Shown here in pieces: positions 17,832 through 61,622 of a DNA stretch of 64,000 nucleotides. The position numbers were made by a program, and so were the translations under genes. Source of the stretch: Leisingera sp. NJS204 (lineage in GTDB: Bacteria; Pseudomonadota; Alphaproteobacteria; Rhodobacterales; Rhodobacteraceae); assembly GCF_004123675.1 (NCBI RefSeq), contig NZ_CP035417.1:2099501-2163500 (forward strand), given 5' to 3'. Positions within the stretch are counted from its first letter, which is position 1. Every line of letters begins with the position of its first letter. The notes under the pieces are model-generated. The model worked only from the letters and a program-made list of their open reading frames with translations, searched no databases and was not told the DNA's origin.

Positions 17832-19226
17832 TTACATATGGATCACCCGGTCATAGGCATCGAGCACCGATTCATGCATCATCTCGGACAGCGTCGGATG
17901 CGGGAAGACGGTGTTCATCAGGTCTTCCTCGGTGGTTTCCAACTGGCGGCCCACCACGTAGCCCTGGATCAGCTCGGTCACTTCCGCACCGACCATATGG
18001 GCGCCCAGCAGCTCACCTGTTTTGGCGTCAAAGATGGTCTTCACCATGCCTTCAGCCTCTCCCAGCGCAATCGCCTTGCCGTTGCCGATGAAGGGGAAGC
18101 GGCCGACCTTGATGTCATAACCCAGTTCCTTGGCCTTCGCTTCGGTATAACCGACCGAAGCCACCTGCGGCTGGCAGTAGGTGCAGCCGGCAATGCTTTC
18201 GGGCTTTACGGCATGCGCGTGTTTGCCCGCGATCAGCTCGGCCACCATGACACCCTCGTGCGACGCCTTATGCGCCAGCCAGGGCGCGCCGGCGATATCG
18301 CCAATCGCGTAAAGACCATCCACCCCGGTGCGGCAGTATTCATCCGTCACCACATGGGTGCGGTCGACCTTGACGCCCAGCTCTTCCAGCCCCAGGCCTT
18401 CGACGTTGCCGACGATGCCCACGGCAGAGATCACGGTGTCGAACTCCTGCTTTTCAACCTTGCCGCCAACCTCGATATGGGCCGTCACTTTACCCTTACC
18501 GCGGTCCAGCTGCTTGACCATGGCTTTCTCCATGATCTTCATGCCCTGTTTGACAAAGGCCTTCTTGGCAAAGGCGGAGATTTCCGCGTCTTCCACCGGC
18601 AGCACCCGGTCCATCACTTCAACCACCGTGGTGTCGGCGCCCAGCGTGTTGTAGAAGCTGGCAAATTCAATACCGATGGCGCCCGAGCCGATGACCAGCA
18701 GCTTCTTCGGCATCCGCACCGGGTCCAGCGCGTGTTTGTAGGTCCAGACCAGATCGCCGTCAGCCTCAAGCCCCGGCAGTTCGCGTGCCCGTGCGCCGGT
18801 GGCCAGCACGATGTGTTTGGCGGTCAGCTCTTCAGAGCCTTTGTCGGTTTTGACCGACACCTTGCCCTTGGCAGGAAGCGTCGCTTCGCCCATGACCACC
18901 GCAATCTTGTTCTTCTTCATCAGGTGGCCGATGCCCGAGGACAGCTGTTTCGCCACCCCGCGCGAGCGTTTCACCACCGCGTCCAGATCATAGCCGATGT
19001 TCTCGGCTTTCAGGCCGAAATCCTTGGCCCGCTCCATCAGGTGAAATACCTCGGAGGAGCGCAGCAGCGCCTTGGTCGGGATACAGCCCCAGTTGAGGCA
19101 GATACCGCCCATATGCTCGCGCTCGACAATGCAGGTTTTCAAACCCAGCTGTGCGGCACGGATGGCCGCGACATAGCCCCCCGGCCCGGCGCCGATTACG
19201 ATCACGTCATAAGATTGTGCGGCCAT
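17832..19226 (-). CDS. lpd: Dihydrolipoyl dehydrogenase (E3)
   Basis: FAD disulfide oxidoreductase of 464 residues that re-oxidises lipoyl groups of 2-oxoacid dehydrogenase complexes. FAD motif GAGPGGYVAA at residues 12-21, redox pair CLNWGC (C43 and C48), NAD motif GSGAIGIEFAS, and the C-terminal HPTLSE with catalytic His and Glu. The ATG at 19226 has GAGGGAG upstream; a longer reading adds ten residues without support. The gene is 17 kb from pdhA-pdhB-pdhC but carries the same palindrome 34 bases before its start, so it is likely co-regulated with that operon. Confidence 0.95.
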   Translation of the reverse strand: MAAQSYDVIVIGAGPGGYVAAIRAAQLGLKTCIVEREHMGGICLNWGCIPTKALLRSSEVFHLMERAKDFGLKAENIGYDLDAVVKRSRGVAKQLSSGIGHLMKKNKIAVVMGEATLPAKGKVSVKTDKGSEELTAKHIVLATGARARELPGLEADGDLVWTYKHALDPVRMPKKLLVIGSGAIGIEFASFYNTLGADTTVVEVMDRVLPVEDAEISAFAKKAFVKQGMKIMEKAMVKQLDRGKGKVTAHIEVGGKVEKQEFDTVISAVGIVGNVEGLGLEELGVKVDRTHVVTDEYCRTGVDGLYAIGDIAGAPWLAHKASHEGVMVAELIAGKHAHAVKPESIAGCTYCQPQVASVGYTEAKAKELGYDIKVGRFPFIGNGKAIALGEAEGMVKTIFDAKTGELLGAHMVGAEVTELIQGYVVGRQLETTEEDLMNTVFPHPTLSEMMHESVLDAYDRVIHM

Positions 19227-19260
19227 AGTGCTCCCTCGCCCTCGAACAGGTTCCAAAACT

Positions 19261-19276
19261 AGTTTACCGTTAAACT
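19261..19276 (-). promoter_or_regulatory. Shared palindrome before lpd
   Basis: On the lpd strand, AGTTTA-ACGG-TAAACT, a perfect 6-bp-arm inverted repeat centred 43 bases before the ATG. A near copy (GGTTTA-ACAC-TAAACT) precedes pdhA. Best explained as an operator for a common regulator. Confidence 0.65.
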
Positions 19277-19430
19277 ATTTTTTTCTGCGCTGCAATCATC
19301 CTCTGCTGCGGCATAGCGGCCATGCAAGAAACAGCGCAACGCCGTCTGAACAGGCTATGCTGCAGGCAAACAACCCGCCAGCAGATTTTTGCGTTCGCCT
19401 TGAAAAGGCTGCAACTGGCAGGATCACAAT

Positions 19431-36201: not shown

Positions 36202-36341
36202 GCGCCCTCCTGTCCGTCCCCCCTTTGCCGCGCTTGCTGTTTGCTGCGTGGCATTTTTGCGTTCCATGGGCGGATTTTTACGCGGCGGAAACCCCGCGGC
36301 AGAATAACACTATTCAGCCGGGCCAAAACCGGGTATCAATT

Positions 36342-36357
36342 GGTTTAACACTAAACT
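36342..36357 (+). promoter_or_regulatory. Shared palindrome before pdhA
   Basis: GGTTTA-ACAC-TAAACT ends 28 bases before the pdhA ATG. It matches the lpd-strand copy before lpd (AGTTTA-ACGG-TAAACT) in both arms but for one base. Candidate operator of the pyruvate dehydrogenase genes. Confidence 0.65.
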
Positions 36358-36385
36358 ATCTAGCCTGCAGGGGGAGTCGACCACC

Positions 36386-37402
36386 ATGGCCGCTAGGAAA
36401 AGCGCAAAGAAACCAAACGTTTCTGCCGAAGAGCTTACGAAACACTACCGCGAAATGCTGCTGATCCGCCGATTCGAGGAAAAATCCGGCCAGCTTTACG
36501 GCATGGGTCTGATCGGCGGCTTCTGCCACCTCTACATCGGCCAGGAAGCGGTTGTTGTCGGGCTTGAGGCCGCAGCTGAGGAAGGCGACAAGCGCGTCAC
36601 CTCCTACCGCGACCACGGCCATATGCTGGCCTGCGGCATGGACCCGGACGGCGTCATGGCCGAATTGACCGGCCGCGAGGGCGGCTACTCCAAGGGCAAG
36701 GGCGGCTCCATGCATATGTTCTCGAAAGAGAAGCATTTCTATGGCGGCCACGGCATCGTCGGCGCCCAGGTGCCGCTTGGTGCCGGCCTTGCCTTTGCCG
36801 ACAAATACAAGGGCAACGGCCGCGTGACATTCGCCTATTTCGGTGACGGTGCCGCCAACCAGGGCCAGGTCTACGAGACCTTCAACATGGCCGCCCTGTG
36901 GAAGCTGCCGGTGGTCTTCGTGATCGAGAACAACCAATACGCCATGGGCACCTCGCAGCAGCGTTCCACCTCCAGCGCCGAGATCTGGGAACGCGGCAAG
37001 GCCTTCGGCATTCCGGGTGAGGCGGTCGACGGCATGAACGTGCTGTCCGTCAAGGAAGCCGGCGAGCGCGCCGTGGCCCACTGCCGCAGCGGCGACGGCC
37101 CCTATATCCTCGAAGTCAAAACCTACCGCTACCGCGGCCACTCAATGTCGGATCCGGCCAAATACCGCACCCGCGAAGAGGTCCAGAAAATGCGCGAAGA
37201 GCGTGACCCGATCGAGCACGTCCGCGAGATGCTGCTGACCGGCAAACACGCGACCGAGGACGACCTCAAGGCGATCGACAAGGAGATCAAGGAAATCGTC
37301 TCCAAGTCCGCAGATTTCGCCAAGGAAAGCCCGGAACCCGCGCTCGAAGAGCTGTGGACCGACATTTACGCCGACGAAGTCCCGCAGGAGGCCAGCGCCT
37401 GA
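36386..37402 (+). CDS. pdhA: Pyruvate dehydrogenase E1 component, alpha subunit
   Basis: 338 residues. Thiamine diphosphate motif GDGAANQG at 153-160 through ENN at 181-183, the HGIVGAQVPLGAGLAFA block, and the phosphorylation-loop-like RYRGHSMSDPAKYRTREEV. With the beta subunit it decarboxylates pyruvate and acetylates the E2 lipoyl group. GGGGGAG lies upstream of the ATG. Its stop overlaps the next start by one base (TGATG). The shared palindrome upstream suggests co-regulation with lpd. Confidence 0.96.
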   Translation: MAARKSAKKPNVSAEELTKHYREMLLIRRFEEKSGQLYGMGLIGGFCHLYIGQEAVVVGLEAAAEEGDKRVTSYRDHGHMLACGMDPDGVMAELTGREGGYSKGKGGSMHMFSKEKHFYGGHGIVGAQVPLGAGLAFADKYKGNGRVTFAYFGDGAANQGQVYETFNMAALWKLPVVFVIENNQYAMGTSQQRSTSSAEIWERGKAFGIPGEAVDGMNVLSVKEAGERAVAHCRSGDGPYILEVKTYRYRGHSMSDPAKYRTREEVQKMREERDPIEHVREMLLTGKHATEDDLKAIDKEIKEIVSKSADFAKESPEPALEELWTDIYADEVPQEASA

Positions 37403-37789: not shown

Positions 37790-39160
37790 ATGGCAACCGA
37801 AATTCTTATGCCCGCCCTGTCGCCGACCATGGAGGAAGGCACGCTGGCCAAATGGCTGGTCAAGGAAGGCGATACCGTGAACTCCGGCGATATCATGGCC
37901 GAGATCGAAACCGACAAGGCCACGATGGAGTTCGAAGCTGTTGACGAAGGCATCGTCGGCAAGATCCTGATCGGCGAAGGCACCGAAGGCGTCAAGGTGA
38001 ACACGCCCATCGCGGTGCTGGTCGAGGACGGAGAGAGCTACGACGCCTCTGCCGCGCCGGCATCCGCCGCCGCCAGCGAAGCGCCGGCGGCCGAGGCACC
38101 TGCGGCGCCCGCAGCTGCTGCCGCGGCTGCGCCGGTCGCCTCCGTGACCCTGGAACCGGATTATCCGGAAGGCACCGAAATGGTGCAGACCACGGTCCGC
38201 GAAGCCCTGCGCGACGCCATGGCCGAGGAAATGCGCCGCGACGAAGATGTGTTCCTGATGGGCGAGGAAGTCGCCGAGTACCAGGGCGCCTATAAGATCT
38301 CCCAGGGCCTGCTGGACGAATTCGGCGCCAAGCGGGTGATCGACACGCCGATCACCGAACATGGCTTTGCCGGCATCGCCACCGGTGCGGCCTTCGGGGG
38401 CTTGCGCCCGATTGTCGAGTTCATGACCTTCAACTTCGCCATGCAGGCGATTGACCACATCATCAACTCGGCGGCCAAGACGCTGTATATGTCCGGCGGC
38501 CAGATGGGCGCCCCGATGGTGTTCCGCGGCCCCAATGGTGCTGCCGCCCGCGTCGGCGCCCAGCACAGCCAGGACTACGCCGCCTGGTACATGCAGATCC
38601 CCGGCCTCAAGGTGGTGATGCCCTACTCCGCGTCCGACGCCAAGGGGCTGATGAAAACCGCGATCCGTGATCCCAACCCGGTGATCTTTCTGGAGAACGA
38701 GATCCTCTATGGCCGCGCCTTTGATGTGCCTAAGCTGGATGACTACACCGTCCCCTTCGGCAAGGCCCGGATCTGGCGTGAAGGCACCGACGCCACCATC
38801 GTCTCCTTTGGCATTGGCATGACCTATGCGCTGGAAGCGGCTGATAAGCTTGCAGAAGACGGCATCTCGGCCGAGGTCATCGACCTGCGCACCATCCGCC
38901 CGATGGACCTGCCCACAGTGATCGCCTCGGTGCAGAAGACAAACCGTCTGGTCACGGTCGAGGAAGGCTGGCCGCAGGGTTCGGTCGGCAGCTATATTGC
39001 CTCGGAAGTGATGCAGCAGGCCTTCGATTACCTTGATGCGCCGGTCATCACCTGCACCGGCAAGGACGTGCCCATGCCTTATGCAGCCAATCTCGAACGC
39101 CACGCGCTGATCACCACGGATGAGGTGGTCGCAGCCGTGAAGCAAGTGACCTACCGGTAA
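37790..39160 (+). CDS. pdhB: Pyruvate dehydrogenase E1 component, beta subunit, with lipoyl domain
   Basis: 456 residues. Residues 1-80 form a lipoyl domain with K43 in [10 protein letters not shown]; an Ala/Pro-rich linker (about 85-120) follows; the transketolase-like beta subunit starts near 130 ([34 protein letters not shown]) with [21 protein letters not shown] and the C-terminal [16 protein letters not shown]. An N-terminal lipoyl domain on E1-beta is known in alphaproteobacteria. The domain is almost identical to that of the following E2 gene. Confidence 0.96.
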
Positions 39161-39171
39161 GGAGCCTCAAG

Positions 39172-40485
39172 ATGCCCACAGAAATCCTGATGCCCGCGCT
39201 GTCTCCCACCATGGAGGAAGGCACCCTTGCCAAATGGCTGGTCAAGGAGGGCGACACCGTCTCCTCCGGCGACCTGATCGCCGAGATTGAAACCGACAAG
39301 GCCACCATGGAATTCGAAGCCGTGGACGAAGGCGTGGTCGGCAAAATCCTGATCGCCGAAGGCTCCGAAGGCGTGAAGGTCAACACCCCGATCGCGGTGC
39401 TGCTGGAAGACGGCGAAAGCGCTGATGACATCGGCACTGCTCCGGCCTCCTCTGAACCCGCCGCAGCATCTGCCGCAGCCGAGCCGGGGCCTGCAGCGTC
39501 GCCCTCTCCTGCCGCGGCCTCACCAGCCCCGGCAGCCCCCGCCGCGTCTGATGGCAGCCGGATCTTCGCGTCACCGCTGGCGCGCCGCATCGCCGCGGAC
39601 AAGGGCCTGGACCTCGCCCAAATCAAAGGCTCAGGCCCCAAAGGCCGCATCGTCAAGGCAGACGTCGAAAGCGCCAAGCCGCAAGCCGCCGCTGCCCCGA
39701 AAGCAGACGCTGCACCCGCCGCCGCTGCCCCGGCGGCCGCAGCACCAGCAACCGGCCCCTCCGCCGATCAGGTTGCCCGCATGTACGAGGGCCGCGACTT
39801 CGAAGAGGTCAAACTGGACGGCATGCGCAAAACCATCGCCGCCCGCCTTACCGAAGCCAAGCAGACGGTGCCGCATTTCTACCTTCGCCGCGACATCCAG
39901 CTGGATGCGCTGCTGAAATTCCGCGGTGAGCTGAACAAGCAGCTTGAAGGCCGCGGCGTGAAGCTTTCGGTCAACGACTTCATCATCAAGGCCTGCGCCC
40001 TGGCGCTGCAATCGGTGCCGGATGCGAATGCTGTCTGGGCCGGCGACCGGGTTCTGAAAATGAAAGCCTCGGATGTGGCCGTTGCCGTCGCTATCGAAGG
40101 CGGTCTGTTCACCCCTGTTCTGCAGGACAGCGATATGAAATCGCTCTCTGCGCTCTCAACCGAGATGAAGGACCTCGCCAAACGCGCCCGCGACCGCAAG
40201 CTGGCGCCGCATGAATACCAGGGCGGCTCTTTCGCGATCTCCAACCTCGGCATGTTCGGCATCGACAATTTCGACGCCATCGTGAACCCGCCGCATGCCG
40301 GCATCCTGGCGGTTGGCGCCGGCGTCAAAAAGCCCATCGTCGGCAAAGACGGCGAGCTGGCGGTGGCCACGGTGATGTCCGTAACCCTATCGGTCGACCA
40401 CCGGGTGATCGACGGCGCCCTTGGCGCGGAGCTTTTGAACGCGATCAAGGACAACCTGGAAAACCCGATGGTGATGCTGGCCTGA
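39172..40485 (+). CDS. pdhC: Dihydrolipoamide acetyltransferase (E2)
   Basis: 437 residues. One lipoyl domain (1-80, K43 in [10 protein letters not shown]), a linker, the E3/E1-binding domain (about 125-160, [34 protein letters not shown]), a second Ala/Pro linker, and the catalytic domain ending in DHRVIDG, where H410 is the expected catalytic base. It moves the acetyl group from lipoyl to CoA and forms the core of the complex. It starts 11 bases after pdhB with AAGGAG upstream; last gene of the operon. Confidence 0.96.
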
Positions 40486-60998: not shown

Positions 60999-61622
60999 TC
61001 CTTGCTCTCCTTTGCCTCGGCAATCCGTCCGTTCAAATAGCTTGGAATGGCGGCTGGGTGCAAGAGCGGGCTGATCTCCAGTGCCGCCGCGCGCACTGTG
61101 CATTTCACGGAGAAATTGCGGGAGTGGAGTTTATTGTTAACCAATACCCCTTAGGTTGATAGCACGATGATGACAGAACTCGGCATCCGTCCTCGTGGAT
61201 TGCCAAAACCGGGCTGGAGGTCTGGGCCAATTTTCCTCCAGCCCGTCTTTTTTTCCCAACTATGCTGACAGCACATTGCTTATGCTCGTTTCACCGGCCA
61301 TCCGGCCCTGACTTACTTGCTGCCTCTGCCCCGCCGGTTTCCATGTTGCTGTCCCGGTGTTGCCAGCCGCGGCTCAGATCCAGGCGCCGGCCAGCCGACA
61401 GAGACCGGCAAATTTCCGCCACTGGAAAATCAAATCCAAGGCCGGCGGAAACTTAGTTTCGAGGCGCCTCTGGTATCTGGAGCATCCCTGCGGCTACTGC
61501 CTGCGCCCTGTGCGCAGTGCCCTGTGCAGCCTGGACAGCCCCAAAAAGCCGCCTGCGTTAACGGCACATTTGGATTTATACGTCATTCTTTCAGTCCAAA
61601 GGCAAAAAGGAACGGCCCCGCC
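60999..61622. other. Long gap before the PilZ pair
   Basis: 624 bases between fabF (minus) and the first PilZ gene (plus). It contains a candidate small RNA with promoter and terminator (61134-61256). The rest (61257-61622) holds no ORF with a credible start and ribosome site. Confidence 0.6.
61169..61256 (+). ncRNA. Candidate small RNA with own terminator
   Basis: A strong intrinsic terminator (GGGCTGGAGG/CCTCCAGCCC, 14-base loop, then GTCTTTTTTT; 61211-61256) has no gene in front of it. A promoter-like TTGTTA (61134-61139), 17-base spacer and TGATAG (61157-61162) would start a transcript near 61169, giving about 88 bases. A 48-codon ORF from 61167 lacks a ribosome site, so non-coding is favoured. 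Promoter match is moderate. Confidence 0.5.

Follow-up and report, generated by a model that had tools for sequence, protein, structure and literature searches.

Palindromes before pdhA and lpd of Leisingera sp. NJS204 as probable operators of a MarR-family regulator of malate, pyruvate and acetyl-CoA metabolism

Rhodobacteraceae are important recyclers of marine carbon. As far as the accessible parts of the respective papers go, the control of pyruvate dehydrogenase in this family has been either predicted, with CceR as the regulator (PMC4344238), or called indirect, with RedB and FnrL as the proteins involved (PMC9603517). In the stretch of 64,000 nucleotides of the Leisingera sp. NJS204 chromosome analyzed here (hereafter, the window), two genes for components of this complex, pdhA and lpd, lie far apart on opposite strands, and each is preceded by a similar near-palindrome. 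These two sites raise the question of whether one protein binds both and, if so, which protein that would be.

The two palindromes and their conservation

The genes and sites under consideration are the following:

36386..37402, plus strand: pdhA, pyruvate dehydrogenase E1 alpha (TIGR03182, over the cut-off)
37790..39160, plus strand: pdhB, pyruvate dehydrogenase E1 beta (NF008854, over the cut-off), presumed from gene order to share the pdhA operon
39172..40485, plus strand: E2, dihydrolipoamide acetyltransferase (TIGR01349, over the cut-off), likewise presumed from gene order to be in the pdhA operon
17832..19226, minus strand: lpd, dihydrolipoyl dehydrogenase, E3 (TIGR01350, over the cut-off)
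36339..36360, plus strand: predicted pdhA operator, 22 bp, ATTGGTTTAACACTAAACTATC, core at 36342-36357, 33.0 bits with the 22-bp matrix
19258..19279, minus strand: predicted lpd operator, 22 bp, AATAGTTTAACGGTAAACTAGT, core at 19261-19276, 28.5 bits with the 22-bp matrix

Among the best 80 of at least 585 confirmed relatives, identity of this pdhA to those of Leisingera reaches 98%. The pdhA core, GGTTTAACACTAAACT, ends 28 bases short of the ATG at 36386; its counterpart, AGTTTAACGGTAAACT on the minus strand, ends 34 bases before the lpd ATG at 19226, so that the positions and distances given in the preliminary description are confirmed. Counted in the form AGTTTA-N4-TAAACT, the motif AGTTTANNNNTAAACT occurs with at most two mismatches at three places in the window, against 0.17 expected, and none of 100 shuffles reached three. 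With the 22-bp matrix, which was built from 80 pdhA sites of other genomes (the best 80 of at least 585 relatives), no place in the window other than the pdhA and lpd sites scores above 6.9 bits, and the best of 60 shuffled windows reaches 13.8 bits.

Genome-wide, the core GTTTA-N4-TAAAC has five exact matches. They precede lpd, pdhA, the malic enzyme gene maeB (L001, outside the window), an acetyl-CoA synthetase gene, acs (L002), and a plasmid repC-like gene (L005). The bare core is no commoner than its reversed control (5 exact matches versus 3, and 20 versus 95 with at most one mismatch); this count accordingly proves nothing, and the evidence resides in the position of the sites and in the full 22-bp match. 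By the latter measure, the maeB site (30.3 bits) stands with those of pdhA and lpd, and the acs (4.6 bits), repC-like (7.0 bits) and fabF (6.9 bits) sites, all below the best shuffled window, were treated as background. The fabF site consists of a core with one mismatch at window positions 61128-61143, within a 22-bp match at 61125-61146. Thus, on the concern raised in the preliminary description that the motif might occur at a random rate, the answer differs between its two forms: the 22-bp motif rises above the shuffles, whereas the core alone is at background level.

The site before pdhA is kept, with at most two mismatches to the core and within 250 bp upstream, in all 80 loci compared (61 exact, 16 with one mismatch and 3 with two); these are the best 80 of at least 585 confirmed relatives, a sample that is biased towards close relatives and whose species may overlap with the genomes scored below. 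In the same best 80 loci, the consensus of the site is ATAGTTTAACGYTAAACTAT, and the distance from the end of the core to the start codon is nearly fixed, with a median of 29 bp and quartiles of 28-30. The exact core is present in 43 of 61 genomes of the family. Among 29 loci with the exact core, taken one per genome from other genomes, the site precedes pdhA in 9, maeB in 7, lpd in 4 and aceE in 2, and it lies elsewhere in 7. Conservation before pdhA, as anticipated in the preliminary description, thus holds throughout this sample; for lpd, the motif was found in four other genera, as sampled among the 29 loci rather than counted over lpd orthologues.

These observations bear on the possibility that the two palindromes resemble each other by chance. 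The lack of enrichment of the bare core over the reversed control would fit that reading, but the conservation at all of the best 80 of at least 585 pdhA loci at a nearly fixed distance, the presence of the same motif before maeB and aceE, and matrix scores that exceed every shuffle made render coincidence extremely improbable. Both palindromes are therefore, almost certainly, true operators, as predicted from these comparisons. The suggestion of a common regulator for pdhA and lpd is likewise supported by the sequence comparisons at pdhA, lpd, maeB and aceE.

The nature of the additional targets is informative. An extra aceE site was detected in L177, and the three aceE sites score 13.3, 24.3 and 35.4 bits. 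The aceE product of L133 (TIGR00759, over the cut-off) is a homodimeric E1 that is unrelated to the E1 of the pdhA type, and because this is a different E1 type, the site appears to follow function rather than gene ancestry. Given that MaeB converts malate to pyruvate and pyruvate dehydrogenase converts pyruvate to acetyl-CoA, the targets form one route. Four of the seven exact-core loci elsewhere stay under 8 bits. Three matrix matches exceed 15 bits without preceding any of the four target genes, namely, those in L030 (35.7 bits), L038 (21.7 bits) and L018 (18.8 bits), of which the last two come from genomes without a marR match. The L030 copy of the operator (L030:1497-1518) is flanked by the 3' ends of two convergent genes, an amidohydrolase gene and a melibiase-like gene.

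A MarR-family protein as the candidate binder

A pointer to the regulator comes from outside the family. The strict motif AGTTTARYRYTAAACT, a form that misses variants, including the site of the Leisingera genome itself, was found in 6 of 289 genomes spread over the class, that is, in 3 of the 4 from the family and in 3 of the 285 others. All three motifs outside the family (L181, L182 and L183) are located directly before an FMN oxidoreductase gene that is followed by a gene of the MarR family. This pointer to MarR is independent of pdhA. The oxidoreductase of L181 belongs to the Acg family (NF047509, over the cut-off), and those of L182 and L183, where tandem copies of the operator are spaced 24 bp apart, were judged similar by eye. 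In the Leisingera genome, the corresponding gene is:

G000:C1:4061834-4062271 (L249:6832-7272, minus strand in L249): marR, 146 aa, Pfam MarR_2 and MarR over the cut-off

The recognition helix of this protein, VTRGAMTNTL, is nearly the same as that of the L181 and L182 proteins (VTKGAMTNTL) and that of the L183 protein (VTKGAMTNTI). Two further cases, too few for anything but illustration, fit with this pattern: the MarR protein of L189 has a differing helix (VPKTSMSHTL) and no site above 8 bits nearby, and that of L190 keeps the helix (VTKGAMTNTV), with matches of 15.0 and 11.4 bits preceding an oxidoreductase-like gene.

Some 1.9 Mb separate the Leisingera marR from pdhA. Upstream of marR are the gene for glutaredoxin 3 and an amidase-like gene, for which the top-ranking model, deaminated glutathione amidase, scores under the cut-off, and marR faces ubiG; by eye, the neighbors are alike in several other loci. 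No site above 5 bits was detected with the 22-bp matrix in the stretch around marR, and hence there appears to be no autoregulation there. The protein has no cysteine, and 28 of the 29 aligned proteins of this type, this one included, have none in the first 150 residues, a composition that speaks against a thiol switch.

With the L181 MarR as the query, 52 of the 61 family genomes match at an E value of 1.9e-28 or better, and nine do not. With the Leisingera protein as the query, 197 of 216 genomes that are at least 95% complete match at 1e-14 or better, two of them weakly; G366 (4e-16) and G452 (5e-19) were counted as marR-minus, resulting in 21 marR-minus genomes. A pdhA site of 15 bits or more, a threshold fixed after the scores had been seen and only just exceeded in G025 (15.7), G015 (16.5) and G002 (19.3), is present in 61 of 64 marR-plus genomes versus 1 of 12 marR-minus genomes (Fisher 7e-10). 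In the first set, the 56 of the 61 family genomes that have pdhA, the site occurs in 48 of 50 genomes with a MarR match and in 1 of 6 without. In the second set, which was chosen to add marR-minus genomes and genomes with a diverged marR (30 picked, 21 with pdhA, 20 of these new), it occurs in 13 of 14 with marR and in 0 of 6 without. G019, in which the sole pdhA-like match is a 42% identical paralogue, was left unscored. Among 1120 shuffled upstream regions, none reaches 15 bits, the best being 14.4.

The same distribution holds for the malic enzyme gene: the maeB site is present in all nine marR-plus genomes of a hand-picked set (21.1 to 30.3 bits) versus none of the 21 marR-minus genomes (highest score, 5.3; Fisher 7e-8), where the G054 match, at 46% identity, might be a paralogue and one of the two maeB copies of G452 was scored. 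The Fisher values overstate the significance because the genomes are not independent draws.

Overall, the site occurs where marR occurs and is gone where marR is gone, with four exceptions. G033, a 74% complete assembly, has a pdhA site without a marR match, and three genomes with a marR match lack a good pdhA site, namely, G379 (5.5 bits), G020 (4.0 bits) and G008 (-16.3 bits). In G020, there is a 13.3-bit site at aceE instead, and in G008, the best MarR match adjoins an oxidoreductase gene, like the distant type. The marR-minus genome G428 retains a decayed match of 11.1 bits, 31 bp from the gene, a spacing typical of these sites. In the tree built from 50 pdhA rows, in which the bootstrap had not settled and some branches are long, the seven marR-minus rows require 7 changes, at least 3 of which are forced by well-supported branches; marR-minus rows being scattered in this way, the loss of marR was not one old event. 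From the co-occurrence and the helix comparison, a MarR-family protein is very probably the binder of these sites.

No pdhA match was obtained in ten of the 21 marR-minus genomes (G017, G047, G054, G352, G356, G374, G380, G397, G424 and G452), nor in at least four marR-plus genomes (G030, G395, G473 and, its paralogue apart, G019). The loss of marR and a change in the type of pyruvate dehydrogenase may be linked.

CceR and other candidate regulators

Our first suspicion was a LacI operator. A palindrome of even length with a pyrimidine-purine step at its center would suit a LacI protein as well, and under this explanation, CceR, a member of the LacI family, would bind the sites, in line with the prediction for RSP_1663 of Rhodobacter sphaeroides, which we take to be CceR. 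In the available part of PMC4344238, RSP_1663 is predicted to bind [AGT]GTT-N6-8-AAC[ACT], a motif with two clusters that differ in the spacer, and its predicted targets include pdhAB, malic enzyme and zwf; both window sites fit this loose motif in its N8 form. Furthermore, MaeB is lowered and the zwf product is raised in a Paracoccus cceR deletion (PMC11323563, in the portion accessible to us), and the gene for L142, likely CceR as judged by inference, is itself commoner among marR-plus genomes (9 of 9) than among marR-minus genomes (10 of 21). However, of 29 loci of zwf, a predicted target, 16 carry GTTA-N4-TAAC and none carries GTTTA-N4-TAAAC (the partial locus L173 having been left out), so that the half-sites differ from those at pdhA. 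This palindrome, which reads GTTAGCGCTAAC in 14 of the 16 carrying loci (for example, L150, L154 and L165), is perhaps the CceR operator; upstream of maeB in 30 genomes, the best match to it has three mismatches. Moreover, L142 is present in 19 of the genomes scored for maeB, and the maeB site accompanies it in 9 of 9 with marR and in 0 of 10 without (Fisher 1e-5), and the presence of the likely CceR is accordingly not sufficient for the site. The distribution of L142 and the zwf motif together disfavor CceR, which we consider improbable as the binder at pdhA and lpd; given that MaeB is lower in the Paracoccus deletion, as far as the available text of that study goes, CceR may influence maeB through some other route. 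Most simply read, the published motif merges the operators of two different proteins.

The Leisingera genome has four LacI genes, L141 and L144 among them, and the across-genome test covered L142. Co-occurrence alone cannot separate two factors with the same distribution, so that the pattern could reflect another transcription factor that disappeared together with marR. Such an unrelated factor would not explain the three sites outside the family because all of these front gene pairs with a MarR protein of nearly the same recognition helix, and we regard its involvement as unlikely. With respect to other known proteins, RedB and FnrL of Rhodobacter capsulatus affect pdhA, pdhB and lpdA1, an effect that the authors call indirect in the accessible part of PMC9603517. 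A search for the motif letters in six spellings found no paper among open-licence papers, a weak negative result.

A second GntR-like LacI gene (L143; L187:5106-7282), 55% identical to L142, sits next to, and divergent from, a gap (GAPDH)-like gene, as judged by eye; other second copies of L142 in the 30 genomes are at most 38% identical.

Proposed regulation and its relation to known systems

The palindromes before pdhA and lpd are probably operators of a MarR-family regulator, most likely a repressor, of a predicted malate-pyruvate-acetyl-CoA regulon. One regulator, most likely the Leisingera MarR described above, would bind directly and would control the conversion of malate to pyruvate and then to acetyl-CoA via maeB, pdhABC and lpd. 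The center of the pdhA operator is about 36 bp before the start codon, and the upstream region contains a conserved CTCGC block 29-33 bp and a TA pair 8-9 bp before the core, a spacing roughly like that of -35 and -10 elements. The CTCGC block is unlike a standard -35 element, and a strict sigma-70 scan before pdhA found no promoter. If CTCGC and TA do represent a promoter, the start of transcription would fall within the operator and be covered by a bound dimer. Given the location of the operator just downstream of this -35/-10-like pair, repression is proposed, and the MarR protein likely acts as a repressor. With rising levels of a pathway metabolite, it would dissociate from the DNA; the targets suggest, as a tentative guess, that the ligand is pyruvate or a similar 2-oxo acid. 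The preliminary description left the regulator unnamed, as either a repressor or an activator; the position of the operator now points to repression, and the protein evidence points to the MarR family.

One counterpart among the systems compared here is the enterobacterial PdhR, of the GntR family, which controls aceEF-lpdA according to the accessible part of PMC5343134. PdhR is, and the candidate would be, a regulator of pyruvate dehydrogenase genes, including that for E3, a likeness that here exists at the level of sites only (pdhA and lpd, and aceE elsewhere). In contrast to PdhR, the candidate identified here belongs to the MarR family and would have a different operator, its gene is about 1.9 Mb away instead of heading the pdh operon, maeB is among the predicted targets, and there is no site at its own gene. 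No regulator gene was seen beside aceE in L133 and L134 when their open reading frame lists were inspected by eye. The earlier statement that the palindrome is not a PdhR site of the GntR type agrees with the MarR_2 and MarR matches of the best-supported regulator. In Corynebacterium, pyruvate dehydrogenase and acetate genes are under the control of RamB, which represents still another regulator family; this protein and its motif are unrelated to those described here.

A further resemblance is to the uncharacterized MarR proteins encoded beside Acg-family oxidoreductases, whose operator is the same and whose recognition helix is almost identical. The arrangement differs in that the marR gene follows the site-bearing gene in those loci, whereas in Rhodobacteraceae, marR is not adjacent to its predicted targets, which are genes of central carbon metabolism. 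On balance, we lean towards the view that pyruvate dehydrogenase of Rhodobacteraceae is run by a MarR repressor that is related to these regulators of oxidoreductase operons and was rewired to maeB, pdhABC/aceEF and lpd; it would be an independently evolved analogue of PdhR and would gate the flow from malate to acetyl-CoA. If so, this would be a clear case in which an unrelated family fills the role of PdhR and in which regulator and operators were lost together more than once, and the published CceR assignment would have mixed two operators into one, such that the network assignment would need revision. The proposal names one specific candidate protein, an operator defined over 22 bp and three operons as its targets. 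The three oxidoreductase-marR pairs detected outside Rhodobacteraceae belong to three other alphaproteobacterial families.
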